Assembly (NCBI GenBank): GCA_029262895.1
Contig: JAJCYM010000001.1
Coordinates: 1 to 48,718 of the forward strand
Origin: Roseivirga sp.
Lineage (GTDB): Bacteria; Bacteroidota; Bacteroidia; Cytophagales; Cyclobacteriaceae
Reading direction: 5' to 3'
DNA length: 48,718 nt
The notes under the pieces are model-generated. The model was not told the origin of the DNA. It made no database searches and saw only the letters and a list, made by a program, of their open reading frames with translations. The position numbers and the translations under genes were made by a program. Position 1 is the stretch's first letter. The number at the start of each line of letters is the position of its first letter. Below are positions 4,371-30,426 of this stretch, piece by piece.

Positions 4371-5213
4371 TTACTCAACTTTCAAGAAGTTTTCATTCAA
4401 ATAATCCTTCATTCTGACCGACTGATAACCCGCGGTGAGTTTCTCCAGCTTTTGATCGCAAGCTTTCAAATTGTAAGACTGACGGATGCGATTGAAGCCT
4501 GAAAGGTGATCTTTATAATGAATAGAATCATCAAGCTCCCAGGGGTGCAGGTAGAAGTTAAACACTTCACATTTGTTCTTCATGTGCCCTAAACCAAGCT
4601 TATATATCCAATAGGGCATGAACCTGAAGTAGGCCCCTCCAGCCCAGGGAAAGTACTTTTGTCCTACCGGAATATTCGTCAAAGGAAACTCATAAAAACC
4701 CGGCTTTAATTTGTAGCATTCTCGTGACTCGCTTTCATATTGAGTCAACTTTCCGTATCGATCATGAAAGAGGGTTTTAAATACACTGGAATCGTATGTA
4801 AAGCCCTCTTCCATGAGTATTTCAATTGCCCAATCAGTAATTGAAAAATTTGGAGCCCTGTAGCCCAAAACCTCTTCTCCGGTAATGTCTTCCAGGATTT
4901 TTTTTGAATCTCGTATATCCTGCCTGAATTCATCTTGGCTTAGGTTATATACGATTTCATGATGTGTGCCGTGGCTGGCTATTTCGTGCCCCTCTTCAGC
5001 AATTTCACGAACAAGGTCCTTATATTTCTTAGCAACCCAGCCTAATACAAAAAATGTCCCTTTGTTGCCCTTGGCTGTCATGTAGGACAAAATCTTCCGG
5101 GTATTAACTTCTACACGCTGGTGCTGGTCTGACCAGATGTCCCTTTTGATAAGTTCGGTAAAGTTGGCAGTATGATACCAGTCTTCTATATCGTATGTGA
5201 AAAAGAATTTCAT
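4371..5213 (-). CDS. Polysaccharide deacetylase (NodB domain, DUF3473-type)
   Basis: NodB-homology deacetylase of 280 aa. It removes N- or O-acetyl groups from a sugar, normally using a metal held by one Asp and two His. The DIEDW motif at residues 8-12 supplies the Asp pair, the SHGTHH stretch at 80-85 gives His81-x3-His85, and GYRAPNFS near 117-124 is the next conserved block. A C-terminal HPWELD block fits the deacetylases seen in exopolysaccharide clusters. There is no signal peptide, so it probably acts in the cytoplasm on a lipid-linked or nucleotide-linked intermediate. It overlaps the formyltransferase gene by 4 bases (ATGA), hinting at deacetylation followed by formylation of the same amino sugar (inference). 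Confidence 0.88.
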   Translation of the reverse strand: MKFFFTYDIEDWYHTANFTELIKRDIWSDQHQRVEVNTRKILSYMTAKGNKGTFFVLGWVAKKYKDLVREIAEEGHEIASHGTHHEIVYNLSQDEFRQDIRDSKKILEDITGEEVLGYRAPNFSITDWAIEILMEEGFTYDSSVFKTLFHDRYGKLTQYESESRECYKLKPGFYEFPLTNIPVGQKYFPWAGGAYFRFMPYWIYKLGLGHMKNKCEVFNFYLHPWELDDSIHYKDHLSGFNRIRQSYNLKACDQKLEKLTAGYQSVRMKDYLNENFLKVE

Positions 5214-6019
5214 ATCAAACGAAAGCCTTTGCTTTTAAATGCTTTTACATCTTCTGAATTCGGGAAGGTCTTATAAGTAGCCTGATTTGCATCATTGGGC
5301 TTAAGTTCAGGTTCACCCGAAATGGCATATTGTTCCAATACTTTCACCATCAATTGCCCTCCTAAAATCTTCGTTCTTTTAATAAGCCCTTCCATAGGTT
5401 CTTTAGGGTCTAAATTTACTTCTTCTTGCAAAATGATTGGCCCTGAATCCCAATCTTCATCCATTTTAAAAATAGACACCGCAGTCGTGGGGTCATTTTC
5501 ATAATCCAGCATTGCCCAGAAGGTGGGTAGCATACCTCTTAGTTTTGGCAATTTAGAATTATGAACGTTGATACATCCATATTTGGGTGCATACAATATT
5601 TTCGTGCGAAATTTTTGACTCCCTCCCACCGAAACGATCAGGTCAATTTGCTCCTCTTCAACCCTGGTAAGGAAGTTTTTTGAGTTGATATTGACATTTT
5701 CAACAACTTCCCAATTATTTTTAATGGCCAGATGTTCGAGGGAGTAATAGCCAGGAAAGTTCCCTTTAAAAAGCTTAAGTGCTATTACATTCATACACTT
5801 GACAAATGCATACTTTACTCCTTTTAGAAAGAACCCTACCGGACCATATAGACCATAAAGCTTCTTGGCCAGGCCTTTTTTGCTTTTTGAGCCTAAAGGT
5901 GCTTGAATTACCAAGCCTGAAACTTCAATGTTCTGAGTCTTCTTTAATTCCGCAGAAAATGCGTGGAAAAAATACTTCAGAAAGAAGGGGTCGTCCTGTG
6001 TAATGATTATGATCTTCAC
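5210..6019 (-). CDS. Formyltransferase-fold protein, candidate sugar N-formyltransferase
   Basis: Protein of 269 aa with a methionyl-tRNA formyltransferase catalytic fold. The catalytic Asn-His-Asp triad of N10-formyltetrahydrofolate enzymes is present as Asn151, His153 and Asp191, inside an INVHNSKLP...RG block and a KMDEDWDSG block. Outside that core it does not look like housekeeping Fmt, and its place between a deacetylase and a glycosyltransferase suggests transfer of formyl to an amino group on a nucleotide sugar. The start is GTG, overlapping the stop of the upstream gene (GTGA). The nucleotide-binding N-terminus is diverged, so the substrate is unknown. Confidence 0.78.
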   Translation of the reverse strand: MKIIIITQDDPFFLKYFFHAFSAELKKTQNIEVSGLVIQAPLGSKSKKGLAKKLYGLYGPVGFFLKGVKYAFVKCMNVIALKLFKGNFPGYYSLEHLAIKNNWEVVENVNINSKNFLTRVEEEQIDLIVSVGGSQKFRTKILYAPKYGCINVHNSKLPKLRGMLPTFWAMLDYENDPTTAVSIFKMDEDWDSGPIILQEEVNLDPKEPMEGLIKRTKILGGQLMVKVLEQYAISGEPELKPNDANQATYKTFPNSEDVKAFKSKGFRLI

Positions 6020-11150: not shown

Positions 11151-12083
11151 CTACTTTGTTTTATAAGGCATTAACAATAAATAAATCATGTATAATGTAC
11201 CTAACAGATCGTCTCTCAAATAGAGTGATTTCACCGACTTGTAGAATTCATTATTTGATAGTGTCTTTTCAAAATTCTCAGGGTAGACCTCGTCCTTTTT
11301 GATTTTTCCATAACGAGATTTCAAAATCAGTTTTGGATAGTATTTTCTGAGCATGATCTTCTCAATATCTTGCATCAGTGTATCTGAAATCTTACTCTCC
11401 AAATACGACCTGAAGAGTTCAAGGAATTCCGTGACATAAACATCGCTGAAATTCACTTTATGGACAAAAGAGGAATTGTTTGGATAAGTGCCCACCAGTT
11501 TATTCTCGCAAATAAAGAATTTACTCCCTTCTTTTACACAGTTTAAAACCACATGTAAGTGAGCAAAATTCCCTGCTAATACGGCTGATTCGTCATAATA
11601 TGACATATTTATCACATAGGACGACAATAGACGAAACTGCAACATAGTGCGTGTGAGAAATTGTCCAACAGACACCTCCTCAAACTGCACATTTGTTCTG
11701 ATATTCAGATCGTCTTTCTTAGTGGCAAGGGCCCTTAAAAACACAAGGTCCGGCTCGTCTTTGGTAATGAGTTCATTGATTTTAGGTAAAGAACCAAGTG
11801 TCATGAAATCATCATCGCCCAGAACAATGACATATTTAGTGTCGCAGTTCTTGAAGCATAACTCAAAGTTTTTGGCCCAACCCAGGTTTTCAGGGTTGAC
11901 ATTGTAGTTAATATTCAACCCCTTATCCTTCCATTTTTTTATCACCTCATTTGTATTATCGGTGCTGGCATTGTCATTGACTAATACCTTAGTGAAGGAC
12001 TCTTTTTGTTCAAAAAGATAGCTCAGGTTTTTATCTAAAAACCCGGCTCTGTTATAAGTAGGAATCGCTACTGTTAAACTCAT
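11151..12083 (-). CDS. Glycosyltransferase family 2
   Basis: GT-A fold glycosyltransferase of 310 aa. The N-terminus (VAIPTYNRAGFL), the VNDNASTDNT block and the metal-binding LGDDDF motif near residues 90-97 are classical GT2 features. There is no signal peptide, and only a hydrophobic C-terminal tail (YMIYLLLM). It likely adds a sugar, possibly the 3,6-dideoxyhexose made by the neighbouring genes, to the lipid-linked repeat. Its start overlaps the end of the 4-reductase gene by 32 bases. Confidence 0.85.
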   Translation of the reverse strand: MSLTVAIPTYNRAGFLDKNLSYLFEQKESFTKVLVNDNASTDNTNEVIKKWKDKGLNINYNVNPENLGWAKNFELCFKNCDTKYVIVLGDDDFMTLGSLPKINELITKDEPDLVFLRALATKKDDLNIRTNVQFEEVSVGQFLTRTMLQFRLLSSYVINMSYYDESAVLAGNFAHLHVVLNCVKEGSKFFICENKLVGTYPNNSSFVHKVNFSDVYVTEFLELFRSYLESKISDTLMQDIEKIMLRKYYPKLILKSRYGKIKKDEVYPENFEKTLSNNEFYKSVKSLYLRDDLLGTLYMIYLLLMPYKTK

Positions 12084-12939
12084 TACTTATGATACTTATT
12101 CCTTTCGACAAGGAGGTGTTGGCTGTCCATCCTAATTCAATCAAACCAGAAGGATCAGAAACAGCGGTTTCTATCTCATTTACCCTTTGAGGTAGCCGGT
12201 CAAACAAGAGCTCTGACTTTGAGCCCAATACCGAATGGGCCAAGGTGACGAACTCACGAATAGTGGTACCTGTTCCTGAGCCCAGTTCAAATTCAACAAA
12301 ATCGGGCATAGACGAAAAGACCTTCAAAATAGTCTCATAAGCCCTAACCACATCTTGAACGTAGATAAAATCCCGAGTCTGGCTTCCGTCTGTCAACTCT
12401 ATTTGGGCTTCATTCACGGTCAGCTTTTGAATGATTGAATTCACAAATTTAGAAGTTTTGTCATTCTCCCCATACATGTGAAAAAGTTTCACATTCACTA
12501 CTTTGAATGAAGAATTGTCTGCGTACTTAGATAGCCAGTGCTTGGTCTGAATTTTTGACAAGATGTATTCCTGCAAATATTCATAGTCCGGAAAATCTGA
12601 AAAGAAGCTGTCTGTATTGATAAAAAGCTTCACTCCGTATTTTGATGACAGGGACAGCAGTCTCAAAGGTAGAATCAGGTTTGAATCTATCAATTTAGGC
12701 AAGTCTGCTTCTTCCCGAACAGCATAGGATGTAGCAGTATGAATTACTACGTCAATCTCATGACTTTCAAATATCTGCTCCAGCTCCACTTCTCTGGTGC
12801 TGTACTGCCTGAAATTAGGGTGATCTAATGACAGGGCATTCGACCTGTAAATTCCAATCACAGAGAATTCTGAAATCAAGTGTTTCGTGAGACGTGACCC
12901 CAGGAAACCAGATGTGCCGGTAATTAAGATTTGTGTCAA
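12052..12939 (-). CDS. NAD-dependent 4-reductase of the CDP-3,6-dideoxyhexose pathway (RfbJ/RfbS-like)
   Basis: SDR protein of 295 aa with GTSGFLG near residue 7, an INTDSFF segment and a YILSK catalytic Tyr-x3-Lys. It follows rfbF, rfbG and the RfbH-like gene, which is the position occupied by abequose (RfbJ) or paratose (RfbS) synthase in enterobacterial O-antigen clusters. It would reduce the 4-keto group of the 3,6-dideoxy intermediate to give the final CDP-sugar. Which epimer is formed (abequose or paratose configuration) is undetermined. No tyvelose epimerase is seen. Confidence 0.7.
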   Translation of the reverse strand: MTQILITGTSGFLGSRLTKHLISEFSVIGIYRSNALSLDHPNFRQYSTREVELEQIFESHEIDVVIHTATSYAVREEADLPKLIDSNLILPLRLLSLSSKYGVKLFINTDSFFSDFPDYEYLQEYILSKIQTKHWLSKYADNSSFKVVNVKLFHMYGENDKTSKFVNSIIQKLTVNEAQIELTDGSQTRDFIYVQDVVRAYETILKVFSSMPDFVEFELGSGTGTTIREFVTLAHSVLGSKSELLFDRLPQRVNEIETAVSDPSGLIELGWTANTSLSKGISIISNEFNSSDSYL

Positions 12940-13052: not shown

Positions 13053-14267
13053 TCAGCAGTTGATTGAGATGAATTCGTCTAATGATTTGTGCAGTTTCTC
13101 AAACATCTGATCAGTCAACCCATGGTGCAAAGGCAACAAAACGCCTTGTTTCATGATCCTGTCAGCATTTGGATATCCTTCAGCGGTTATACGTTTGTTG
13201 ATATTGATAAAGCCAGGCTGCCTGTTGATATTGCCTGTGAATACTACGCGTGTCTGAATGTTTCTCTTTTCAAGAAAAATCTGAAGTTCGGTCCTTGTAA
13301 AGGGAGATTCTTCTTTGATCAGAATCGGAAATGCCAACCAGGCAGTTTCAGCACCTTCTGTTTCTTCAGGGTTGATAAAATAATCTGGATACTTGCTGAA
13401 GAAGGCCATTTGCCTTTCAAGGTTCTCCTGGCGTGTTTTCATATTCTGATCCAGTTTATTCAACTGTGCCAGACCAAATGCCGCTCCTACCTCATTGCCT
13501 TCCAGATTATAACCTACAGTCTCAAATACAAATTTGGCATCGTACTGTATTCCATCCAGATTTACGTTGAAGCGATTTTCGATTGCTTCGCTTTTTTCAT
13601 CGAAAAGTGATGAGCTGCGACCCCATGAGCGAAGTAATTTAGCTCTTGACATCACTTCCTCGTCATTTATGGTTAAAGCGCCACCATTTCCAGCACAATT
13701 GATGATATGAGAACCATAGAAACTGGTGATTGACATATCAGAATAATGACCTGATGATTTACCTTTCAACTGAGCACCAAGTGTATCAGCTGAATCTTCA
13801 ATCACTTTTAGGTTGTGTCTGTCGGCAATCTCCCTGATCTCATCCCATTTGCAAATATTTCCTAATAAGTTTGGGGCAATGATGGCAACAGTTTTATCTG
13901 AGATCATTTCCTCAATCTTGGTGGGGTCTATACAGTAAGAGTATTCTTCAACATCGACAAAAACTGGTATCAGGTCGTTTTTCACTAGACACCCCACAGT
14001 TGTGGAGAACGTGAGTGCAGGAGTGATCACCTCACCTCCTTTTGGAAACTGAAAGGCCTCAATGCCCACATAGAGGGCTGAAGAGCCTGAATTTACGTAG
14101 AGGCAGTGCTTCTTGTCGAACAAGTCAGCAATTTTAGCCTCGAACTGTCTCGAATAATTACCCATTTGGGTCGACTCATTGAGACATTTCACCACAGCAT
14201 CAATTTCTTCCTGTCCGTATACCGTTTTGGCATAAGACACGAACAGATCATCGGTTATAGTATTCAT
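13053..14267 (-). CDS. RfbH-like PLP/PMP sugar 3-dehydratase lacking Fe-S ligands
   Basis: DegT/DnrJ/EryC1/StrS-fold protein of 404 aa. The Schiff-base lysine of the aminotransferases is replaced by His187 in the SFYGSHIINC segment, the hallmark of the C3-dehydratases RfbH (E1) and ColD. Context (rfbF and rfbG upstream, a reductase downstream) points to CDP-4-keto-6-deoxyglucose 3-deoxygenation. However, the Cys cluster that binds [2Fe-2S] in RfbH, shortly after the conserved Trp-Gly-Arg, is absent: this part of the protein (about residues 215-255) contains no Cys. That makes it ColD-like. No E3 iron-sulfur reductase gene (ddhD) lies in the window. I am confident of the fold and the Lys-to-His change, less so of the exact substrate. 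Confidence 0.85.
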   Translation of the reverse strand: MNTITDDLFVSYAKTVYGQEEIDAVVKCLNESTQMGNYSRQFEAKIADLFDKKHCLYVNSGSSALYVGIEAFQFPKGGEVITPALTFSTTVGCLVKNDLIPVFVDVEEYSYCIDPTKIEEMISDKTVAIIAPNLLGNICKWDEIREIADRHNLKVIEDSADTLGAQLKGKSSGHYSDMSITSFYGSHIINCAGNGGALTINDEEVMSRAKLLRSWGRSSSLFDEKSEAIENRFNVNLDGIQYDAKFVFETVGYNLEGNEVGAAFGLAQLNKLDQNMKTRQENLERQMAFFSKYPDYFINPEETEGAETAWLAFPILIKEESPFTRTELQIFLEKRNIQTRVVFTGNINRQPGFININKRITAEGYPNADRIMKQGVLLPLHHGLTDQMFEKLHKSLDEFISINC

Positions 14268-14292: not shown

Positions 14293-15357
14293 TTAGACGT
14301 GAAGGTATTTCTCCACTTGTTGTTGAGTGATGTCCTTAGCGTTTCCGCCAGATATCACAGTCTTATTCCATTCCACTATCAACTCAAGAGTAGTGTTAAT
14401 GTTCCATTTAGGGCGCCATCCAAGGCGGCTTTTAGCCTTGGAGCAATCAAGCTTGAGGTAATTGGCCTCATGCGGATGTGCTGCCGTATCAAAGATGTAA
14501 CCTGCACCTTCTCCCCAAAGTTCGCATAAAACTCTGGTGATCCATTCGACATTCTGCACATCAAGATCTTCTGGTCCAAAATTCCAACCTTCTGCAAATT
14601 TCTGCCCATGGGTATACAATCGTTCGGCCAGTATCAGGTAACCACTTAGCGGTTCGAGTACATGCTGCCAGGGCCTGGTGGCCAGGGGGTTTCTAATGAC
14701 CACGTCCTCAGACCGTTCAATCGCCCTGAGAATATCAGGGATTAACCGATCGGCCGACCAGTCTCCACCGCCAATTACATTACCTGCTCTGACAGAAGCA
14801 AGTGCAGCCTTGTCTTCTCCATTGAAGAATGACCTACGGTATGCTGAGGTAACCAGTTCAGCACAGCCTTTGCTACTACTGTAGGGGTCGTATCCGCCCA
14901 TGGCTTCATTTTCACGATATCCCCAGTACCACTCACGGTTTTCGTAGCACTTGTCTGTGGTCACATTTGTGATAGACCTAAGATTAGGGCAAGACCTTGC
15001 AGATTCCAGCACATGAACTGTGCCCATGACATTTGTAGAGTAAGTTTCTACCGGTTCATTATAGGACAACCTCACCAAAGGTTGTGCTGCCATATGAATC
15101 AAAACATCTGGGTTGTGATTAACCATGCTCTTTTTGAGCTTGGCCAGGTCCCTGATGTCACCTATTTCGCTCTCCATACCGTTAGCCACGATCGCCATTT
15201 CAAAGAAATTGGGATCAGTATCGGGTTCCAGTGCGTAACCCTTTACAATAGCTCCCATACTCTTAAGCCAAACGGCCAACCAACCACCTTTAAAACCAGT
15301 GTGACCGGTGAGAAAGACTCTCTTCCCACACCAGAATTCGGGATTTACTTTGGCCAT
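14293..15357 (-). CDS. rfbG: CDP-glucose 4,6-dehydratase
   Basis: Extended SDR enzyme of about 354 aa that converts CDP-glucose to CDP-4-keto-6-deoxyglucose. Motifs: the NAD-binding GHTGFKG near the N-terminus, TTDKCY, and YSSSK as the Tyr-x3-Lys; the GGDWSADR segment is typical of RfbG. I prefer the ATG at 15357 because it forms a TAATG junction with the rfbF stop and gives the usual N-terminus (MAKVNPEFW); an ATG 9 bases upstream at 15366 is also in frame. It is the second step of the 3,6-dideoxyhexose branch. Confidence 0.93.
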   Translation of the reverse strand: MAKVNPEFWCGKRVFLTGHTGFKGGWLAVWLKSMGAIVKGYALEPDTDPNFFEMAIVANGMESEIGDIRDLAKLKKSMVNHNPDVLIHMAAQPLVRLSYNEPVETYSTNVMGTVHVLESARSCPNLRSITNVTTDKCYENREWYWGYRENEAMGGYDPYSSSKGCAELVTSAYRRSFFNGEDKAALASVRAGNVIGGGDWSADRLIPDILRAIERSEDVVIRNPLATRPWQHVLEPLSGYLILAERLYTHGQKFAEGWNFGPEDLDVQNVEWITRVLCELWGEGAGYIFDTAAHPHEANYLKLDCSKAKSRLGWRPKWNINTTLELIVEWNKTVISGGNAKDITQQQVEKYLHV

Positions 15358-16130
15358 TATTTCCATAGTTTCCAGGGTGCTTTCCCATTATCCCAAAGAT
15401 CCTCTAGGAGTTTCTTTTCTCTGAGCGTGTCCATTGGCTGCCAAAAACCATCATGTTTAAAAGCCATCAATTGGTCATCTTTGGCCAGGTTGATCAATGG
15501 ATCCTGCTCCCAAATGGACGAATCACCTTCGATATAATCTATTACCCGCTTTGACAGAACAAAGAAACCACCATTGATGAAAGATCCATCTCCTTTGGGC
15601 TTTTCTCTGAAAGACATAATCTGATTGCCGTTGAATTCCAGCGCTCCGAATCTACCGGGGGCCAAGGTAGCCGTCAAGGTGGCCAGCTTGCCATGATTAT
15701 GGTGAAATTCCACTAGTTGAGAAATATCAACATTGGCTACACCATCACCATACGTAAAACAAAAAGGTTCATCTTCTTCCAAATGCTCCGCTACTCTTTT
15801 CAGCCTTCCACCGGTCAATGTACTTTCACCTGTATCAACCAAGGTTACCTTCCAGGGTTCTGCTCTCTTTTGGTGTACTATGATTTTATTGTTCTCCAGG
15901 TCATAGGTAACATCCGACATGTGAGTAAAGTAATTGGCAAAATATTCTTTGATCATATACCCTTTGTATCCACAGCAAATTATAAACTCATTAATACCAT
16001 AATAAGAGTATATTTTCATGATGTGCCACAAAATAGGCTTGCCACCTATTTCTACCATAGGCTTTGGTTTTAAATGAGTTTCTTCACTAAGTCGGGTTCC
16101 GAAACCACCTGCAAGAATCACTGCTTTCAT
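15357..16130 (-). CDS. rfbF: Glucose-1-phosphate cytidylyltransferase
   Basis: Nucleotidyltransferase of 257 aa that makes CDP-glucose from CTP and glucose-1-phosphate. The N-terminal LAGGFGTRLSEET signature, KPMVEIGGKPILWHI and the TYGDGV metal-binding block are characteristic of RfbF rather than of RmlA or GalU. It begins the four-gene CDP-3,6-dideoxyhexose cassette (cytidylyltransferase, dehydratase, 3-dehydratase, 4-reductase), and its stop overlaps the start of rfbG. Seventy bases separate it from the upstream glycosyltransferase; they contain a short hairpin-like repeat and nothing else recognisable. Confidence 0.95.
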   Translation of the reverse strand: MKAVILAGGFGTRLSEETHLKPKPMVEIGGKPILWHIMKIYSYYGINEFIICCGYKGYMIKEYFANYFTHMSDVTYDLENNKIIVHQKRAEPWKVTLVDTGESTLTGGRLKRVAEHLEEDEPFCFTYGDGVANVDISQLVEFHHNHGKLATLTATLAPGRFGALEFNGNQIMSFREKPKGDGSFINGGFFVLSKRVIDYIEGDSSIWEQDPLINLAKDDQLMAFKHDGFWQPMDTLREKKLLEDLWDNGKAPWKLWK

Positions 16131-16200: not shown

Positions 16201-17313
16201 TTAGTTATTTGTCTTAGACATGAGCTCAAGACCATCTGACACAGCGCGTGCCATACTCATAGAGTCGAATAGCACTTCGGGCATAGGCCGACCTATAAGT
16301 TCGGTCCTGGCCCTGGTGATGTACTCAACGAAAGTTGAGGTATCATTATCAGGTAACAAATACCCGTTAATGCCTTCTTCAATAATATCGAACTCTACAC
16401 CATCCGCCTGATGAACAAGGGCTGGAATACCAAAGCCCAGCATCTCTGAGATGACCACACCACCTCTACCAGGTACCACTAAAAGGTCTACAGCTGAAAG
16501 GTAGTCAGAGAATCTTTCGTTTACGTGACCAGGTGCTAAGATAGCATTGTTGGTTTTGGCAAGGGCCTGAATCTCATCCAGGCAAGGGCCTCGACCAAGA
16601 AACATCAGATTGACACCGAAATCGGCAAGCTTCTGTATCTCAATCAATTTCAATGGATCCTTATTAGGATCAAGAGCACCCAGAAAAAGTAAAGTAATTT
16701 CGTGGGGCAGGTTCAACCTTTTCCTGGCTTCGGCTTTGGATATTTTCGCTTCGGCCATTTTTTTGAACTTCTCTACTCTACCGACATTGGTAACCACTGT
16801 AATCTTTTCCGGATTAAAGCCCAGTTCCACGAGCCCTTGTTTTCCATAGTTATGATAGACGAAAAAATGGTCGAAAAATCCTCGCATAAATTTCTTGAAC
16901 CATTGAGACAGAGAATTTTGATTGTACTCTCTGCCCGGAATCCGAACAAAGGCCCAATATCCCAGCTTTACCTTTCTATTGAAGAAAAGCCTATAGAACA
17001 AGGCCGTTGCATAGCCAAGTATATGGCTCTCTGCCTCACAGACAATTCGTTTTGGCTTTGTTTTACGGAGTAAAGAAAATAACCCCCTATGCCAGGTGAG
17101 TGTTCTACCTAATATGTTAAAGTGGACCGTTTTCAACTGGGTATAATTAATACCAGTAAGTTCATTGGCATTTTTCACTTTGGAATTTGGCACATCTTCA
17201 CCAATGACCATCATAACTTCAGGCTTGAGTGATTGGACGTTACGAAATACATTAGCCCTGTAAACAGGAATTATCCTCTGTAAAATCAGTGAATCAACTG
17301 CGCTCATTGTCAA
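16201..17313 (-). CDS. Glycosyltransferase family 4 (GT-B)
   Basis: GT-B glycosyltransferase of 370 aa. The C-terminal half shows the Glycos_transf_1 pattern: LLFLGALDPNKDP, a FLGRGP block, APGHV and the VVISEMLGFGIPALV region that binds the nucleotide-sugar donor. The N-terminal half (IPVYRANVFRN) belongs to a subgroup of polysaccharide-cluster transferases. It probably extends the repeat unit in the cytoplasm. Its start overlaps the end of the asparagine-synthase-like gene by 20 bases. Donor and acceptor sugars are unknown. Confidence 0.85.
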   Translation of the reverse strand: MTMSAVDSLILQRIIPVYRANVFRNVQSLKPEVMMVIGEDVPNSKVKNANELTGINYTQLKTVHFNILGRTLTWHRGLFSLLRKTKPKRIVCEAESHILGYATALFYRLFFNRKVKLGYWAFVRIPGREYNQNSLSQWFKKFMRGFFDHFFVYHNYGKQGLVELGFNPEKITVVTNVGRVEKFKKMAEAKISKAEARKRLNLPHEITLLFLGALDPNKDPLKLIEIQKLADFGVNLMFLGRGPCLDEIQALAKTNNAILAPGHVNERFSDYLSAVDLLVVPGRGGVVISEMLGFGIPALVHQADGVEFDIIEEGINGYLLPDNDTSTFVEYITRARTELIGRPMPEVLFDSMSMARAVSDGLELMSKTNN

Positions 17314-19132
17314 AAAATATCTTTATCCAGACTTTAATCACCAGAATCTTATAAATGGTTGATGTGTTTCCAAAATCCTTGGCATAGTACCTTTCGAGGA
17401 GGTTGCTTAGTTTTTTGTGATCGAAAAATCCCAAAGTGTCTTTTTCATAGAGAATCTCTTTAATGTCGGCATCTTCTCTCAAAATACTATCAATAGGTGA
17501 AATGAACCCCAACTTCAATTTATTATTATATACAGAAGACGGAATGATGTCCTTGACAGCTTCTCTAAGTAAAAACTTGTTACGGGCACCTTTCAGAAAA
17601 TAGCCCAGAGGAAGTCTGAACACATACTCTACCAATCTATAATCCATAAAAGGGAATCTTGTTTCGATAGAATGCGCCATAGAGAGTGAATCGCCATAGT
17701 GCAGAAGGTTTACCAACCCTGAAGAGTGCATATCTTTCAGAATATCGTTCTTCCTCTTTCTCTTTTGGAACTTTATCTCCTGGCCCAGAACGTCAGCTCC
17801 AAGGCTTTTGAGTTTAAACTTGAAAAAACCACGTTTTACCAGAAATGCATTCACTAAAGACCTGACCATTTGTTTGACCGGGTAGACTTTGGACAGGCTG
17901 CGAACTTCAGAAATGGCTTTACCAATTCTTCCATGTTTCACTTCATTCCAAAGGAAATATGGCATGAATTCATATACATATCCTCCAAACAGTTCATCGG
18001 CTCCCTGGCCTTCCAGCAAAACCCGCCCTTCTTTTCCAATTTCAGAATACATCTGGTCCACTGAAACAATCGCCTTTGAAGAGTGAGGTTCTCCGATATG
18101 TTTGATCACTCCGAACAATCGCTTCAAGTAATTAGTTTGTCCAAGCTCGATGAACTTAGGGTCAATACGAAGTTCCCCATTAAGGTCCTTTACAAAGGAG
18201 GCTTCATTCAATTTTTGGTCTCCCACAAACAAAGATCGCTCTGACTCGTTGTAGAGATTTTCGTTAGAGAAGGAAGTAAAGGTTCTCACTTTCCCTTCAT
18301 CCAGCTTATTATATATAGAGACTATGGTGGTAGAATCTAAACCTGATGTAATAGTCGAAAACACCTGGACATCACTCCTAAGCCTGATCTTTATAGAATC
18401 GATCAAAAGGGCCTGAACTTCCTCCCTGGCCTTTTCAAAAGATACATTATTGTCTCTTTTTTCCGGGTATGACCAATATTTGTCTTGCTCAACAATCTTA
18501 TTGCCCTTTACCACCATATAATGGCCCGGCATTAGCCTGTCGACCCCGTCAAAGAATGAGTCTTCACGCTGACCGCCAACTCCACTGACAAAATACTCCT
18601 GGAGTGCCTGAAAATTGGGTTTTCTCAGTTCAGGAAAATAATTGAGGAGCGGTCTTACTTCTGAAGAAAAGGCAAAGAATCTTTCGTTAATAGAATAGTA
18701 AAAAGGTTTGATACCAAAACGGTCTCTCGATGAAAAGAAGGAGCCATCCTTAACATTATGTACTACAAAAGCCCACATGCCATTGAATTTCTTCAGACAA
18801 TCTTTCCCCCACTCGATATAGGCCTTCAATACTACTTCAGTATCACCTTCAGTAGAAAACTCATGGCCCAGGCCCAGCAGCTGATCTCTTAATTCTATAT
18901 AGTTATAAAGCTCACCATTAAAGCTCAATGTATAATGTGAGAACTTGAATGGCTGGTTGCTGGCAGCATCCAGGTCAATAATTGCCAGACGTGTATGGCC
19001 TACGGCAGTCTGACCATTTACAAAAGTGTAATCACTAAAGTCAGGACCTCGATGCTTAAGCAGTTCCAGGGAACTTCTAAAGCGCCCTTCATCTATCTTA
19101 TCAATGCTCTCAATTCCTAGAATTCCGCACAT
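17294..19132 (-). CDS. AsnB-like glutamine-hydrolysing amidotransferase
   Basis: Asparagine-synthetase B fold, 612 aa. The N-terminal class II glutaminase domain has the nucleophile Cys2 (MCGILG), Arg48 in HTRLA and Asn72 in FNGELYN. The C-terminal ATP-pyrophosphatase domain has its P-loop at residues 262-267, written TSGLDS instead of the common SGGLDS. Such proteins inside O-antigen clusters (WbpS-like) are thought to amidate uronic acid carboxylates, and wecB/wecC nearby supply UDP-ManNAcA as a candidate target. Ordinary asparagine synthesis is less likely in this operon but cannot be excluded. Overlaps of 20 and 23 bases join it to its neighbours. Confidence 0.88.
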   Translation of the reverse strand: MCGILGIESIDKIDEGRFRSSLELLKHRGPDFSDYTFVNGQTAVGHTRLAIIDLDAASNQPFKFSHYTLSFNGELYNYIELRDQLLGLGHEFSTEGDTEVVLKAYIEWGKDCLKKFNGMWAFVVHNVKDGSFFSSRDRFGIKPFYYSINERFFAFSSEVRPLLNYFPELRKPNFQALQEYFVSGVGGQREDSFFDGVDRLMPGHYMVVKGNKIVEQDKYWSYPEKRDNNVSFEKAREEVQALLIDSIKIRLRSDVQVFSTITSGLDSTTIVSIYNKLDEGKVRTFTSFSNENLYNESERSLFVGDQKLNEASFVKDLNGELRIDPKFIELGQTNYLKRLFGVIKHIGEPHSSKAIVSVDQMYSEIGKEGRVLLEGQGADELFGGYVYEFMPYFLWNEVKHGRIGKAISEVRSLSKVYPVKQMVRSLVNAFLVKRGFFKFKLKSLGADVLGQEIKFQKRKRKNDILKDMHSSGLVNLLHYGDSLSMAHSIETRFPFMDYRLVEYVFRLPLGYFLKGARNKFLLREAVKDIIPSSVYNNKLKLGFISPIDSILREDADIKEILYEKDTLGFFDHKKLSNLLERYYAKDFGNTSTIYKILVIKVWIKIFFDNERS

Positions 19133-20390
19133 AGTATCTATTCAGTATTACGTAAGTCATAGCCTGCGCCATATACACACTGATTAACACCCAAAGCAGG
19201 TATGTGACACTGCCAGACCTATTCAAAACTATATAAGCAGAAAGAGGTTGGATGATACTCACAATGGTTGTTATGATGAAAATAACATTCGATTTGCTAA
19301 GTGAAATGAATCTTTGTTGAAAGACCGAGTTGAGTAACTGTGGAAAACACAGCAATATGAACAGGACCATATAGGAGCTCAACTGGTCAAATTCTGAACC
19401 ATAAATAAATTGTGGTAAATCTTCAAATATCAGGAAAACAGCGCCCATCAAGCCTAAATAAGTGAATGACAAAATGAAGAAGCGATTGATGAGCTTCTTG
19501 TCAGAAACAGTTTTGTCTTGTTTTGAAAAACGGTTCAGCAGGTACCCCAATAACGAAGTTGGGATAAAAAGAATGAGCATGCTGAGTTGGTGGCCTGCAT
19601 TGTAGATTCCCAGGGATGAGAAGTTCAATACCCTGGAAACAATAATGATCAGTGTACTGGCCGAAACGGCATAGAGCATCTCATGAAGAAACAAAAACTT
19701 GGACAGGCGTAGAGCCGTAGTTACTGCTTTCCATTTAAAGTGTAGCCTTGATATTTTCAACCCATAGCGTGATATACTATTGTAATATAAGGCAGCCTGC
19801 AAAAGGTAGAGTGATGCCAATGCCAGTACACTACCATTGAGACCCATAGTTTTTGTCAAAAAGTAGATGAGTGGCAATACGAGAATGGAAGTGAATGAGT
19901 TAATCTTTGCCTGAGATTCAAAAAGGCTCAATCCATTCATAAAATTGGTCATCAGTACAGACATGGCATAGCCATAGATGTAAATAGCTGCCAGGACCAT
20001 AAGCTCAGGGTACTGATCATCTTCAAATAAAACTGACGACAGTTCTTCTCGAAAGAGATATACAATCAGAATAAAAGCCGCGAATACAATGGTTAAAAAA
20101 CCAGTAATGCTGGAAATCAACTCTCTTACTCTGGAGTCCTTGGTGAAATCGTTCTGAGTAACGTATCGTACTATTTCATTCGGTAACCCCATCAGATAAA
20201 TCAGGGAACCTGAAAGTACCAACGTTTTTACAAGTCCAAACCTACCGTAATCATCCAAGGTCAGACTTCTTGCTATTAAGATGCCCGATATATACATGAT
20301 TCCCTTGTTGGCAACATTGCCAAATAGGATCCAAAAAACATCTAAAGACTGATTATTTAGCCCTAGCCTTTTGGTTAATGAATGAATCAT
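19110..20390 (-). CDS. wzx: Wzx-type lipid-linked oligosaccharide flippase
   Basis: Polytopic membrane protein of 426 aa with about 12 predicted transmembrane segments and the pattern of the polysaccharide-transport/MATE-like superfamily, including an N-terminal FGNVANKGIMYISGI-like segment and GRFGLVKTLV. It is expected to flip undecaprenyl-linked repeat units from cytoplasm to periplasm. Adjacent genes encode the polymerase (38-base overlap) and the amidotransferase. As usual for Wzx, sequence identity is low and the call rests on topology plus context. Confidence 0.8.
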   Translation of the reverse strand: MIHSLTKRLGLNNQSLDVFWILFGNVANKGIMYISGILIARSLTLDDYGRFGLVKTLVLSGSLIYLMGLPNEIVRYVTQNDFTKDSRVRELISSITGFLTIVFAAFILIVYLFREELSSVLFEDDQYPELMVLAAIYIYGYAMSVLMTNFMNGLSLFESQAKINSFTSILVLPLIYFLTKTMGLNGSVLALASLYLLQAALYYNSISRYGLKISRLHFKWKAVTTALRLSKFLFLHEMLYAVSASTLIIIVSRVLNFSSLGIYNAGHQLSMLILFIPTSLLGYLLNRFSKQDKTVSDKKLINRFFILSFTYLGLMGAVFLIFEDLPQFIYGSEFDQLSSYMVLFILLCFPQLLNSVFQQRFISLSKSNVIFIITTIVSIIQPLSAYIVLNRSGSVTYLLWVLISVYMAQAMTYVILNRYYVRNSRN

Positions 20391-21765
20391 AAATGATTAT
20401 TGGAGAAAGAAAGATAATTGAGAACACTAAATCGAGAATCGCCAATTCCAAACCAGACCCTCTGATAAAAACAACCCATTGATTCAACATAAAGAGCCCA
20501 ACAGCCATGGCCGGCATATATAAGTTTTCTTTCGAACAGAGAAATCTATCGTAAATGGTATTGATTACCACAAAGCAGGGGAATATCAGGAGTATACCGA
20601 GATACCTGAAGTTCCAGAAAAACTCCACGTATAGATTCACAGGGTGAGATATTCCTCTGGCTCTTACACCCGGAGAGTAAGTTCTTGTATACTGGTCAAT
20701 CATACTCCGGGGTTTATTGGGATAAACAAACCTAGGGATAAAAAGAAAGGCCGGCTTCAAAAAGGTGGACCCAAACAAGAATATATCTGGGTCTTCAATA
20801 GCAATATTCAGTCCGTTGGAACTATGGACATAGGCATAAGAAATCTCAAGGTTATTGGCAATGGCCTGAAGGAAGAAATCTTCCGATACATATCTTGGAA
20901 CATATGAAATCAAGTTCAGCACAGATTGATTGTCCACTCCCTCGTAGCTACCATACCCCCTTTTGATAGACATAGCAACAATCAGGAAAAACCCGGCTAT
21001 CATAACAGTAATGGAAGACATTATACTAGCAAACCCTACCTTTCTTCTCTTTATCCCGAATTCTATGAAACCAATTGTCAGGATTAGCAAAATGGCCTGT
21101 CTCTTATCCTCAAACGACACTGCACTCATCATCAAGAGCACAAAGAAGTAGATGGGCAATCTGTAGAGGGTTTTGTATCCAGATGCTGTGATAATGATAA
21201 GAATGGCACCAATAGATTTGGGAATTGCGCTCATACTCCCCTGTGCTCCAAGTGCAGTTAATTCAAACTCAATTTTAGAAAAAACCAACATCAACCCCAA
21301 CCCATATGCAATCAAGGCTTCTTTACGCAAACTCGATTTGAAAAATGCAAATGATTTGCCTTTCGACTTGAAGGTATATCCCAAACTTAGGACTGAAACC
21401 AATAGAAATGCATTGTAGACCAATAGCTTATGTTGAACGTCCTGAAAAGACAGTAAATACAGGAGGTAGTCATCAAAGAATCCGTTTTTGTAGAAAAAGG
21501 CTCCTACGCTATTGTTCAATGACACATAGGCGATCAGTAAGAAAACGGGCGATAAAAATAGAAATCGCCTGTTCCCTATTAATAGGACCCTGAAAACCGC
21601 CAGAAAGAATATTAGGAGATAGTTGACCGACTCGTAGGCCTGAACCTGCGATTCGGACAGAAGAAGTGGTAAGAAGCATAGGGAGAACAGTCCAAAATGG
21701 ACTATCGCCAATGCCCTACACGTCAAGTACTCCGCAGAAATCGAGAATCGTTGCACTTGATTCAT
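20353..21765 (-). CDS. wzy: Putative Wzy-type O-antigen/capsule polymerase
   Basis: Integral membrane protein of 470 aa with roughly 11-12 hydrophobic segments and a larger polar loop in the C-terminal half (around residues 300-390, with YPNKPRSMIDQY). There is no strong signature, as is normal for Wzy; the assignment comes from topology, length and position between wecC and wzx. It would polymerise flipped repeat units at the periplasmic face. Its first 50 bases overlap the end of wecC, an unusually long overlap; a later non-ATG start is possible. Confidence 0.7.
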   Translation of the reverse strand: MNQVQRFSISAEYLTCRALAIVHFGLFSLCFLPLLLSESQVQAYESVNYLLIFFLAVFRVLLIGNRRFLFLSPVFLLIAYVSLNNSVGAFFYKNGFFDDYLLYLLSFQDVQHKLLVYNAFLLVSVLSLGYTFKSKGKSFAFFKSSLRKEALIAYGLGLMLVFSKIEFELTALGAQGSMSAIPKSIGAILIIITASGYKTLYRLPIYFFVLLMMSAVSFEDKRQAILLILTIGFIEFGIKRRKVGFASIMSSITVMIAGFFLIVAMSIKRGYGSYEGVDNQSVLNLISYVPRYVSEDFFLQAIANNLEISYAYVHSSNGLNIAIEDPDIFLFGSTFLKPAFLFIPRFVYPNKPRSMIDQYTRTYSPGVRARGISHPVNLYVEFFWNFRYLGILLIFPCFVVINTIYDRFLCSKENLYMPAMAVGLFMLNQWVVFIRGSGLELAILDLVFSIIFLSPIIIYDSFINQKARAK

Positions 21766-22924
21766 CTGTGCTGCCGATGAATTCTTTATGGGCTACCAGA
21801 TAGACCAGAATTTCAGCTTTGACATATACATCTTTATAATTCGTAATAGGAAACTCGTTGTGATCCTCAATATTGGGTTCCGCTATCAAAATCAGGTTTT
21901 TGGGATGTGTCTGATAAATTTTCTCTGTGATGTGTAGCGCAGGCGATTCTCTAAGGTCATCAATATTTGGCTTAAAAGCCAGACCCAACATGCCAACGAC
22001 TGGCTTGCGACCATGCTTTTTCTCAAATCTAGTCACTTCCTTTTGAACCTTTTCTACACACCAGAAAGCCTTGTAGTTATTGATCTCTCTGCCTACACCA
22101 ATAATCTTGGACTCCAGAGGAAAGTGCGAGGTAATGAAATAAGGATCTACTGCTATGCAATGACCTCCCACACCAGAGCCCGGTCTAAGTATATTCACCC
22201 TAGGGTGCTTATTGGCCAGGTTGATAAGTTCCCATACATTTATATCAGCTTTGTCACAAATAATACTCAACTCGTTCGCGAAAGCTATCTGTACGTCACG
22301 GGAAGCATTTTCGACAAGCTTACACATTTCAGCGGTCCTTGCATTGGTTGGGTGCAAATCACCTTTTACAAATTCTGAATAAAATGCCATGGCTCTTTCA
22401 GTGGATTGGTCATCAATTCCACCGATTACACGGTCGTTGTAGACCAACTCATGCATCACATTCCCTGGAAGTACTCTTTCAGGGCAATAGGCCATGTTTA
22501 CCTTGCCTTCCAATTCGGGTCGCGCAGACAGGATCAGTTCCTGCATCTTTTCTGTGGTTCCAATAGGGGAGGTAGACTCAATAATGTAAAGATCTCCTTC
22601 TTTTAACAAAGGAAGAATTCCTTTGGTGGCCGACTCTACATAAGAAATATCCGGTTCATGGTTACCTTTAAATGGGGTTGGGACCACAATGAGATATACA
22701 TCGCACTCAATGGCCTGAGTTGATGCTTTCAGATATCCATTGTCTACAGCATTTTTAACCGCTACATCCAATTCAGGCTCAACAATGTGAATCTCTCCAC
22801 GGTTGATAATATCAACTACCTCTTCCTTGACATCCACTCCATGAACCTCAACATTGTTCGATGCTATTAATGCTGCCGTTGGCAGTCCAATATAACCAAG
22901 TCCGACTACTACTACTTTTGACAT
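21716..22924 (-). CDS. wecC: UDP-N-acetyl-D-mannosamine dehydrogenase
   Basis: Nucleotide-sugar 6-dehydrogenase of 402 aa that oxidises UDP-ManNAc to UDP-ManNAcA in two NAD-dependent steps. The N-terminal Rossmann motif is GLGYIG, the conserved ESTSPIGTTE block follows near residue 115, and the catalytic cysteine lies in GVGGHCIAVDPYF. The N-terminal VEVHGVDV and the paired 2-epimerase gene two bases upstream match WecC rather than UDP-glucose dehydrogenase. It supplies an acidic sugar for the polymer. Confidence 0.93.
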   Translation of the reverse strand: MSKVVVVGLGYIGLPTAALIASNNVEVHGVDVKEEVVDIINRGEIHIVEPELDVAVKNAVDNGYLKASTQAIECDVYLIVVPTPFKGNHEPDISYVESATKGILPLLKEGDLYIIESTSPIGTTEKMQELILSARPELEGKVNMAYCPERVLPGNVMHELVYNDRVIGGIDDQSTERAMAFYSEFVKGDLHPTNARTAEMCKLVENASRDVQIAFANELSIICDKADINVWELINLANKHPRVNILRPGSGVGGHCIAVDPYFITSHFPLESKIIGVGREINNYKAFWCVEKVQKEVTRFEKKHGRKPVVGMLGLAFKPNIDDLRESPALHITEKIYQTHPKNLILIAEPNIEDHNEFPITNYKDVYVKAEILVYLVAHKEFIGSTDESSATILDFCGVLDV

Positions 22925-22925
22925 C

Positions 22926-24047
22926 TTAGTTTAGTTGATTGATGAAATTGACTATTCTAGCACATGACTTCCCATCTCCATATGGGTTGTGGAGCTCGCT
23001 CATTTTTCTGAATCGATCTTCATTTTCAAGTAAGTCTATGGCTTCGTTATAAATTAATTCTTCGTTGGTGCCTACCAGCAATACAGTGCCTGCATCTACA
23101 GCTTCTGGCCTTTCAGTGGTATCTCTCATTACCAACACTGGTTTACCCAAACTAGGGGCTTCTTCCTGTACACCACCACTATCTGTTATAATGATTTTCG
23201 ATCGATTCATTAACCATATAAAAACCGGATAAGACAGCGGTTCAATAAGCAAGACATTATCTACACCACTCAAAATCCTATTGACTGGCTCTTTCACCTT
23301 TGGGTTGAGGTGCACAGGATAGATAATTTTCACATCAGGTTTTTGAGTTGCCAGCCTTTTAAGCGCGCTGCAAATTCTTTCAAATCCTGCACCATGATTT
23401 TCTCTTCTATGGCCGGTAACCAATACCACCTCTTGCTCTTCCCTTAAGTTTTGCTTTATAAAATCTATATCAGGATTGGACAAATTTTTGACTCGTTCTA
23501 CACTTTCTAACAAAGCATCAATTACAGTATTGCCTGTAACGAGGATAGTCGAAACATCTACTTGTTCCTGTAGAAGATTATCACGGGATTTGCTGGTCGG
23601 AGCGAAATGATAGTCAGAAACTCTACCTACAATCTGTCTGTTGATCTCCTCAGGGAAGGGCGACAGTTTGTCATAAGTCCTTAAACCTGCTTCAATGTGA
23701 CAAACCTTAGCACCAGAGTAAAAACTGGCAAGAGCGGCCGCCATAGAAGTAGTTGTATCGCCATGAACAAAGACAAAATCGGGAGAAAACTCTTCCAAAA
23801 TCGGTTTCAGAGATTCAATAATCGTTGCAGTCAAAGAGTGAAGATTCTGTCCTGGCTTCATCAGATCAAGGTCATAATCAGGTTCTATCTCAAAAAACTC
23901 TAAAACCTGATCCAGCATTTCTCTGTGCTGAGCTGTGACGCAAACTTTGCTGTCAAATGCAGTTGAATGACTTTTGAACTTCTTGACAAGTGGTGCCATC
24001 TTGATGGCCTCTGGTCGTGTGCCAAAAATCAAAAGGACTTTTTTCAT
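22926..24047 (-). CDS. wecB: UDP-N-acetylglucosamine 2-epimerase (non-hydrolysing)
   Basis: GT-B-fold epimerase of 373 aa converting UDP-GlcNAc to UDP-ManNAc. Clear motifs are FGTRPEAIKMAPL at the N-terminus, TAQHREMLDQ, HGDTTTSMAAALA, the HIEAGLRT block, EEINRQ, and ITDSGGVQEEAP in the C-terminal half. Length is standard for WecB. It sits 2 bases upstream of wecC, giving a two-gene UDP-ManNAcA module. Confidence 0.95.
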   Translation of the reverse strand: MKKVLLIFGTRPEAIKMAPLVKKFKSHSTAFDSKVCVTAQHREMLDQVLEFFEIEPDYDLDLMKPGQNLHSLTATIIESLKPILEEFSPDFVFVHGDTTTSMAAALASFYSGAKVCHIEAGLRTYDKLSPFPEEINRQIVGRVSDYHFAPTSKSRDNLLQEQVDVSTILVTGNTVIDALLESVERVKNLSNPDIDFIKQNLREEQEVVLVTGHRRENHGAGFERICSALKRLATQKPDVKIIYPVHLNPKVKEPVNRILSGVDNVLLIEPLSYPVFIWLMNRSKIIITDSGGVQEEAPSLGKPVLVMRDTTERPEAVDAGTVLLVGTNEELIYNEAIDLLENEDRFRKMSELHNPYGDGKSCARIVNFINQLN

Positions 24048-29295: not shown

Positions 29296-30426
29296 TTAGC
29301 CAATAAAATCTAGCACTCCATCAATAATAATTTGTTGCTGCTCTTCGTCCATTTCCGTATGGATTGGGAAAGATATGACACGCGAACACAAATCTTCAGT
29401 CAACGGAAAGTCTCCTTCAGTGTACCCATAATAACGATACGCTCCTTGTAGGTGACAGGGCACGGGGTAGTAGATCATGGAAGGAATACCCCTATCAGCG
29501 AGGTATTGATTCAAACCATCACGATCAACATCATCAGCTAATTTAACCGTGTATTGATGAAAAACATGGGAGGTAAAGGTTGATCGATATGGGGGAGTAA
29601 TCAGGCCTGTCGGTTGAAAGGCGGCATCATAGCGATTAGCTACCTCAATCCTGGCTTGATTGTATTGATCAAGTCTCCTGAGTTTAACTTTCAATACTGC
29701 AGCCTGAAGACTATCCAGTCTAGAATTGACACCGATTGAATCATGGTAATATCTTTTGCTTTGACCATGGTTGACAATCATCCTCATCTTGCCCGCCAGT
29801 TCATCATTGTTCGTCATGATTGCACCGCCATCGCCATAACATCCCAGGTTTTTTGACGGGAAAAATGAAGTTGCCCCTACATTTCCAATTGTACCTGCCT
29901 TCACTTTCCTTCCATCACGAAATGTATAATCAGCTCCAATCGCCTGAGCAGTATCCTCGATCACTACCAGGTTGTGTTGTTTGGCAAGATTCATCAAACC
30001 CTCCATATCCACACATTGTCCATAGAGGTGCACTGGAACAATCGCCTTGGTCTTTTCTGAAATCTTTGATTCCAGATCATCCAAATCAATATTAAAGGAA
30101 TCAGGATATACTTCCACAAATACTGGCTTAAAGCCCAAAAGAGCAATTACTTCAACTGTGGCGACATAAGTGAATGAAGGCACCAAAATTTCAGTTCCTG
30201 ACGGAAAATTATAGGCCATTATAGCTACCTGTAGCGCATCAGTGCCGTTCGCGCAAGGAATGACATGTTTCACTCCGAGATAAGATTCTAAATCAGATTG
30301 AAATTCTCTCACCAATGGACCATTGATAAAAGCCGCAGAATCCAGTACTCTATCGAATTCAGACTTTACTTCATCTTTTATCTTTTCATATTGGCTAATC
30401 AAGTCAACCATCTGAATCTTTTTCAT
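29296..30426 (-). CDS. DegT/DnrJ/EryC1/StrS-family PLP sugar aminotransferase
   Basis: Nucleotide-sugar aminotransferase of 376 aa. The PLP lysine is Lys192 in SFFPSKNLGCYGDGG, and VIEDTAQAIGA holds the Asp that contacts the PLP ring nitrogen. It resembles WbpE/WlbC (3-amino uronic acid) and related enzymes. The usual WbpB dehydrogenase and WbpD acetyltransferase partners are not in the window, so the substrate is uncertain; a 4-keto sugar from the CapD-like dehydratase is an alternative. It is the last gene of the sulfate-activation/uronic-acid operon, 68 bases after the epimerase gene. Confidence 0.88.
   Translation of the reverse strand: MKKIQMVDLISQYEKIKDEVKSEFDRVLDSAAFINGPLVREFQSDLESYLGVKHVIPCANGTDALQVAIMAYNFPSGTEILVPSFTYVATVEVIALLGFKPVFVEVYPDSFNIDLDDLESKISEKTKAIVPVHLYGQCVDMEGLMNLAKQHNLVVIEDTAQAIGADYTFRDGRKVKAGTIGNVGATSFFPSKNLGCYGDGGAIMTNNDELAGKMRMIVNHGQSKRYYHDSIGVNSRLDSLQAAVLKVKLRRLDQYNQARIEVANRYDAAFQPTGLITPPYRSTFTSHVFHQYTVKLADDVDRDGLNQYLADRGIPSMIYYPVPCHLQGAYRYYGYTEGDFPLTEDLCSRVISFPIHTEMDEEQQQIIIDGVLDFIG

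Follow-up and report, generated by a model that had tools for sequence, protein, structure and literature searches.

A candidate Fe-S-free RfbH-like 3-dehydratase in a CDP-sugar cassette of Roseivirga sp.

A gene of Roseivirga sp. located in a 48,718-nucleotide stretch (hereafter, the window) of contig JAJCYM010000001.1 is likely to encode an iron–sulphur (Fe-S)-free, pyridoxamine 5'-phosphate (PMP)-dependent 3-dehydratase/deoxygenase of cytidine diphosphate (CDP)-4-keto-6-deoxy-D-glucose, acting in the manner of ColD and driven by glutamate. Sequence, linkage and phylogeny were established directly, while substrate, product, use of glutamate and final sugar are inferred. A first-pass annotation, made from the sequence of the window alone, had already suggested a ColD-type one-enzyme C3 deoxygenation of a CDP-sugar. 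This reading is supported here as the best fit, because the catalytic His is kept, the cluster ligands are replaced (with at most one left in any clade member), the gene is linked to a CDP cassette, and genes expected to use 4-keto sugars occur at many related loci. The gene and its cassette are as follows:

13053..14267, minus strand: Fe-S-free 3-dehydratase candidate gene, ATG start, intact open reading frame (ORF), 404 aa
14293..15366, minus strand: rfbG, CDP-glucose 4,6-dehydratase (TIGR02622, 496.8 bits, cut-off 278.45), 25 nt upstream of the candidate gene
15357..16130, minus strand: rfbF, glucose-1-phosphate cytidylyltransferase (TIGR02623, 463.6 bits, cut-off 300.25), overlapping rfbG by 10 nt

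The presence of rfbF and rfbG as neighbours, also part of the earlier annotation, was thus confirmed, as both immediately precede the candidate gene on its own strand and score above their cut-offs.

The 404-aa window protein matches PF01041 (DegT/DnrJ/EryC1/StrS) with 292.6 bits. The nearest solved structures are the E1 dehydrase 3bcx (1.6e-66), followed by 3bb8, with the ColD entries at about 2e-42; against the NCBIfam RfbH model NF011936, the protein scores 312.6 bits, below the cut-off of 423. His187 stands in the column of the Lys that binds pyridoxal 5'-phosphate (PLP) and is aligned with His220 of E1 and with the His of ColD, so that the replacement of the PLP lysine by His had been read correctly. 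In the alignment, the E1 cofactor position was marked by 3bb8, whose sequence carries Lys there. His187 is preceded by Ser186, which matches the Ser of ColD and is replaced by Ala in E1.

The cluster ligands of E1 are presumably C193, C251, C253 and C261. At these four columns of the alignment, the window protein has A160, S219, L221 and I229, that is, no Cys at all, in agreement with the lack of cluster Cys noted from the first inspection. S219, L221 and I229 are within a stretch (GRSSSLFDEKSEAIENRF) that aligns without gaps to the corresponding stretch of E1 (GRDCYCAPGCDNTCKKRF), and A160 is outside it. The seven Cys of the protein (28, 55, 93, 112, 139, 191 and 404) are all outside the ligand columns. 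From its sequence, the protein is probably a His-type nucleoside diphosphate (NDP)-4-keto-6-deoxyhexose 3-dehydratase devoid of the cluster-ligand Cys, with a probable role in supplying a rare deoxy sugar to a surface polysaccharide. According to passages of a 2022 review, both E1 and SpnQ contain a [2Fe-2S] cluster and four Cys, whereas none is given for ColD (PMC8987622).

The residues found at the ligand columns reflect more than chance, since the same pattern recurs across a whole clade. In a scan of a genome collection, at least 66 of the best 80 of 93 loci were placed with the window protein, a census that is to be taken as a lower bound. Judging from genome titles, the hosts include Bacteroidota, Prochlorococcus, SAR11 (Pelagibacterales), SAR86, SAR116, Roseobacter-type bacteria, Patescibacteria and others. 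The Cys-free clade is a separate and widespread lineage, apparently unstudied. The window protein, 64 of the 66 scan loci and the plasmid loci L129 and L130 make up the 67 aligned members considered below; L083 and L097, whose reading frames are broken, were excluded from residue counts and trees, and L131 and L132, both members from actinobacterial plasmids, extend the set to 69 proteins.

All 67 aligned members have His at the PLP-Lys column and Ser before it; both actinobacterial members also have the His, which in one of them is preceded by Ala. Each of the 69 proteins has either none or just one of the ligand Cys. A single one is present in 14 of them, always at the C193 column, where Cys is also found in ColD and in six of 20 Lys-type relatives. 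All four ligands are instead present in 13 of 13 Cys-plus RfbH proteins (ten representing every match of a Bacteroidota sample other than those of the window and of the Edaphocola genome G017, and three from plasmid loci chosen from rfbH-annotated rows), and Lys is at the cofactor column of all the 20 Lys-type relatives compared. A local accident or a sequencing error as the cause of the Cys loss was ruled out, the ligand set being missing from every clade member. The actinobacterial branch of the clade comprises L131 (8989-10212), L132 (9001-10206) and L091 (2934-4142), all with His, the last on a short contig of a metagenome-assembled genome (MAG) labelled Bifidobacterium breve.

The phylogeny with RfbH, ColD and SpnQ that had been proposed as a check placed the Cys-free clade apart from both E1/SpnQ and ColD. 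Trees were computed with the trait columns removed. The outgroup consisted of the distant, Lys-containing L100-L104 and L106-L114 together with six Lys-type proteins encoded by the window genome; those on the longest branches were dropped from two later trees. The Cys-free branch received a support of 99/97 and, in the same tree, the E1/SpnQ-like branch one of 100/98; the branch of ColD and ColD-like proteins was supported by 96/87, and the three His-type branches were split from the Lys-type aminotransferases with 100/100. The likeness to ColD asserted by the first-pass annotation stands as regards the Ser-His pair and the missing ligand set; the window protein falls outside the ColD clade and has E1 3bcx as its nearest structure. 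The trees show the Cys-free enzymes as a separate clade, made up of neither degenerate RfbH nor ColD proteins.

As to whether E1/SpnQ or ColD is the sister of this clade, the alternatives are not rejected by the trees. A grouping of Cys-free enzymes with ColD had approximately unbiased test values (p-AU) of 0.391 in a second tree, computed without a phage row, and of 0.151 in a third, in which the ColD branch was broken up; neither value rejects it. The grouping of Cys-free with Cys-plus enzymes had a p-AU of 0.395 in the second tree and a support of 87/70 in the third, where ColD with Cys-plus (p-AU 0.3) was not rejected either. In a quick 73-row tree, the long-branched ColD and phage rows clustered together and with the Cys-plus side, an arrangement flagged as possibly false. 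Phage records matching the window protein were 76, and 54 of them were named Synechococcus; the protein of Synechococcus phage S-H68 (L125, 5863-7158) contains the His as well as a Cys-rich region, and lies on a long branch on the E1 side of the tree.

The absence of a DdhD gene had been counted among the signs of Fe-S independence. At E<=1e-10, a Sphingomonas DdhD query indeed failed to match anything in the window genome, which is 96.17% complete. However, this is weak evidence, because a full-length DdhD match was likewise found in none of the ten Bacteroidota genomes with a Cys-plus RfbH. The idea that the missing DdhD alone proves Fe-S independence was rejected for the same reason: the strong evidence lies in the absent ligands, with which the absent reductase simply agrees. 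Linkage was evaluated with a ferredoxin-motif expression on ORFs >250 aa and with the annotation tables of L126-L128, and three Cys-rich low-complexity matches in L074 and L081 were discarded as chance. No credible ferredoxin-motif reductase ORF was recognized in the examined DNA of the 67 clade loci, compared with a linked reductase in four of the 13 Cys-plus loci (Fisher 0.00045, relatedness ignored).

A role as an E1-type enzyme served by some other electron source, for example a soluble reductase or a flavin, with no bound cluster, must be considered in this context. Two FAD_binding_6 proteins were found in the window genome (E<=0.001), namely NqrF (604.9 bits, over its cut-off) and, outside the window, a PaaE-like ferredoxin reductase (282.8 bits, under its cut-off). 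Reductases of the latter layout adjoin rfbF at L120, L121 and L122, which are Bacteroidota loci with an Fe-S rfbH; a C-terminal ferredoxin domain is present in both of those scanned, and they are possibly an E3 type other than DdhD. Because every cluster ligand of the window protein is replaced, and because no such reductase accompanies any of the 67 clade loci, we regard this explanation as very improbable compared with a ColD-type reaction.

The assignment of the substrate as a CDP-sugar rests on the cassette and on a survey of whole genomes. Searches covered 47 carrier genomes, i.e. those of 45 of the 66 clade loci plus G000 and G017, with short contigs and near-duplicates omitted. CDP-glucose 4,6-dehydratase scored above the cut-off in 42 of them. 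As for the other five, the gene is split at contig ends in G304 (275 and 264 bits), reaches 205-225 bits in three Patescibacteria (G332, G335 and G337), and gives a weak match only in G338, a MAG labelled Bifidobacterium. The dehydratase was found in 40 of 296 Bacteroidota sample genomes, including all the 12 with an RfbH-like match; its frequency in carriers (42/47) is thus to be compared with 28/284 in the sample genomes without such a match (Fisher 8e-29, relatedness and phylum mix ignored). At the level of the loci, an rfbF or rfbG homologue scoring >100 bits was present in the DNA examined for 55 of the 67.

It could be argued that the enzyme deoxygenates C3 of a guanosine diphosphate (GDP)- or deoxythymidine diphosphate (dTDP)-sugar, and that the CDP cassette serves another product. 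In fact, GDP-mannose 4,6-dehydratase (gmd) scored above the cut-off in 24 of the 47 carriers, that of the window among them, and the loci of Edaphocola/Taibaiella and of a Rhodococcus plasmid are not linked to rfbFG. On the other hand, no gmd match at E<=1e-80 was obtained in 22 of the 47 carriers, all 22 of which have the CDP dehydratase above the cut-off, and gmd was not found in the complete (100%) Edaphocola genome G017. The window gene also forms an operon with rfbF-rfbG, and the Methylophilaceae genomes G300 and G301 contain separate ColD homologues beside the Cys-free enzyme. Use of another nucleotide therefore appears improbable, and CDP-4-keto-6-deoxy-D-glucose remains the preferred substrate. 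The idea of a simple ColD that works on a GDP-sugar amid CDP-sugar genes was rejected in view of the 22 carriers with no gmd match, although incomplete genomes may explain some of these. The ColD homologues of G300 and G301 are L167 500-1672 and L168 572-1738 (<=64% identity to 2gms), and a second ColD-like lineage (SFYFSHHITTLEGG; L163 5742-7022 and L164 4048-5388) was observed in two genomes that also have a Cys-free CDP enzyme.

Information on the product comes from the genes surrounding the Cys-free genes, grouped into families by our own clustering, only some members of which were scanned. Transketolase-like genes and an RmlC-like epimerase cluster were each found at 8 of the 67 loci, with one member scanned in each case. 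RmlC-like epimerases occur in ascarylose-type pathways, and for transketolases, action on keto sugars is put forward in the review literature as no more than a proposal. A member of a thiamine diphosphate (ThDP)-enzyme cluster is present within 8 kb at 15 of the 67 loci, two of these members being partial genes. The one at L040 has its best match in PDB 8rph (2e-108, vs 2.6e-63 for acetolactate synthase), which a partial view of its report gives as JanthE, a YerE-like enzyme (PMC12188165). YerE is described, in an excerpt of another paper, as transferring activated acetaldehyde to CDP-3,6-dideoxy-4-keto-D-glucose, the acceptor also used by ErwE (PMC12247030). Overall, 26 of the 67 loci have at least one YerE-like, transketolase-like or RmlC-like gene, all of which are expected to use a 4-keto sugar. 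According to annotation, Cys-plus rfbH has comparable neighbours, that is, a transketolase pair in L126, and rfbC with a ferredoxin-type reductase in the Sphingomonas hengshuiensis locus L127. A 4-keto-3,6-dideoxy product is favoured over an amino sugar because such genes occur at the clade loci as they do beside Cys-plus rfbH. The window locus has only a short-chain dehydrogenase/reductase (SDR) gene among these product-side genes. YerE-like ThDP cluster members and transketolase-like genes are found together near the Cys-free gene in L049, L050, L095 and L105, which suggests unusual branched sugars.

These data also bear on the possibility that the protein is in practice a sugar 4-aminotransferase, passing the amino group of PMP to C4 and giving CDP-4-amino-4,6-dideoxyhexose. 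The protein does belong to the aminotransferase superfamily, a formyltransferase-family gene is present in the window, and SpnQ, which is likewise a His enzyme, aminates when no reductase is available, as reported in the part of the 2022 review devoted to it (PMC8987622). Still, this activity seems unlikely, given the His in place of Lys in 67 of 67 clade members and the genes at 26 of the 67 loci whose products are expected to use a ketone; moreover, the same source, as far as excerpted, reports no amination by ColD or E1 under such conditions (PMC8987622). Finally, a dehydration without completed deoxygenation, or an epimerase or isomerase activity, is hardly to be expected of a gene which occupies the slot of rfbH and has neighbours like those of Cys-plus RfbH, and C3 deoxygenation is again the more plausible reaction.

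Several observations weigh against a cluster-free deoxygenase specific for CDP-sugars. The window genome itself contains gmd, outside the window, and the absences of gmd and DdhD in other carriers may be due to incompleteness because many of these are MAGs or single-cell genomes. DdhD matches starting in the N-terminal ferredoxin part, not linked to the Cys-free gene, were found in four of the 47 carriers (G300, G301, G317 and G324), and further carriers matched DdhD over parts only; the lack of full-length DdhD in Cys-plus genomes has been mentioned above. No rfbF or rfbG homologue >100 bits was present in the DNA examined for 12 of the 67 loci. Nine of these 12, from Edaphocola/Taibaiella and relatives, have the CDP dehydratase elsewhere in the genome, adjoining an rfbF homologue in L170 (G017) and L171 (G327); L091 has none, and L086 and L093 were not among the genomes searched. 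In two Taibaiella genomes (G329 and G331), a Cys-plus RfbH coexists with a Cys-free enzyme whose gene is not linked to rfbFG. No CDP cassette is seen in the annotation of the Rhodococcus plasmid locus L131 nor on the short contig of L091, and the substrate of the actinobacterial branch (L131, L132 and L091) may differ from a CDP-sugar. Lastly, the formyltransferase-family gene at 5210-6019 could point to amino sugars, yet a Lys-type aminotransferase is also present in the window. As a separate observation, the Cys-free gene is distant from rfbF/rfbG at L069-L072, L074, L077 and L081, all from Edaphocola/Taibaiella and relatives.

If the preferred assignment as a ColD-type 3-dehydratase is correct, RfbF would produce CDP-glucose and RfbG would convert it into the CDP-4-keto-6-deoxy sugar, as their families indicate. 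PMP bound to the enzyme would form a Schiff base at C4 of the sugar, and by analogy with E1 and ColD, His187 would take the C4' proton while the C3-OH leaves. As electrons could not be supplied by a cluster, the 3,4-hexoseen adduct would be hydrolysed to PLP and an enamine, and the latter would lose ammonia to give CDP-4-keto-3,6-dideoxyglucose. As in the ColD route, PMP would be regenerated from PLP by transamination with glutamate, which would supply the two electrons otherwise provided by NADH and E3. The SDR of the window would then probably reduce C4 to yield a CDP-3,6-dideoxyhexose, for example that of paratose or abequose. The relevant pages of the 2022 review describe the ColD reaction in the same terms (elimination of the C3-OH through PMP and His, hydrolysis of the adduct, recovery of PMP from glutamate), while the adduct of E1 is reduced through its own cluster and E3 (PMC8987622). 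As the His is kept and no cluster is predicted in the CDP enzyme, the ColD route is the only one left among the described deoxygenases.

The window protein shares with E1/RfbH/AscC/DdhC, the CDP-4-keto-6-deoxyglucose 3-dehydrase, the family, the catalytic His, the rfbF-rfbG cassette, the inferred substrate and product, and, in some loci, similar neighbours. It differs in having none of the four cluster Cys (at most one in clade members), whereas E1 has all four and works with E3; in Ser rather than Ala before the His; in a His loop longer by one residue (AGNGG for GEGG); in a score under the NF011936 cut-off; and in belonging to a separate clade with no linked reductase recognized. With ColD, the GDP-4-keto-6-deoxymannose 3-dehydratase, it shares the Ser-preceded catalytic His, the lack of an Fe-S cluster and the inferred PMP/glutamate mechanism, but ColD has a GDP rather than a CDP cassette, and the two fall in separate supported clades. 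SpnQ (dTDP-4-keto-2,6-dideoxyglucose 3-dehydratase) has in common the catalytic His and the PMP chemistry, but has an Fe-S cluster and a dTDP-sugar substrate, according to the review passages available (PMC8987622). GDP-perosamine synthase and other Lys-type sugar aminotransferases share PF01041, but differ in the Lys at the cofactor column and in their side of the tree.

Three 3-dehydratases are listed in the portion of the 2022 review dealing with them, namely E1 (CDP, Fe-S), SpnQ (dTDP, Fe-S) and ColD (GDP, no Fe-S) (PMC8987622). A CDP enzyme without Fe-S, if true, would be the combination missing from these classes. No title or abstract describing an Fe-S-free RfbH was found by paper searches limited to Creative Commons-licensed PubMed Central (PMC) papers, which is a weak negative. 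The choice of nucleotide would then be separable from the redox mechanism, and why E1 needs a cluster would become a question that can be asked. A tentative view, to which we give somewhat less than even chances, is that 3,6-dideoxyhexoses were ancestrally made by the glutamate-driven route without Fe-S, that cluster and E3 were gained once on the E1/SpnQ line, and that a widespread Fe-S-free lineage specific for CDP-sugars survives in marine bacteria and candidate phyla. In the section of their report available, one group was unable to produce joint activity of E1 and E3 with recombinant proteins, and suspected that the clusters were dysfunctional (PMC7851689); for this reason, one enzyme with no cluster could give access to CDP-paratose, CDP-tyvelose and branched sugars. 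Members of the clade also point to probable dideoxysugar pathways in genomes whose titles name Prochlorococcus, SAR11 (Pelagibacterales), SAR86 and Patescibacteria.

The remaining features of the polysaccharide locus are:

11151..12083, minus strand: family 2 glycosyltransferase (PF00535, 85.1 bits)
12052..12939, minus strand: SDR-type NAD-dependent epimerase/dehydratase (PF01370, 121.1 bits; YILSK at 125)
16201..24047, minus strand: polysaccharide cluster with group 1 glycosyltransferase, asparagine-synthase-like protein, Wzx-like flippase, putative Wzy, UDP-sugar dehydrogenase and UDP-GlcNAc 2-epimerase
5210-6019: formyltransferase-family gene, likewise part of the polysaccharide cluster
29296-30426: Lys-type aminotransferase

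The neighbour cluster to which the SDR belongs recurs in six other clade loci, and the SDR is possibly the C4 ketoreductase that completes a 3,6-dideoxyhexose of the paratose/abequose type; the family 2 glycosyltransferase is possibly the transferase of the finished sugar. The putative Wzy has no Pfam match, and was assigned as a guess from its position and from reading of its sequence. The surroundings also hold a Wzz-like protein and glycosyltransferases. The substrate of the formyltransferase may be an amino sugar whose formation involves the aminotransferase at 29296-30426. Between 7297 and 11017, a heparinase II/III-like protein is encoded beside one of 705 aa that combines zinc-dehydrogenase and GFO/IDH/MocA domains.
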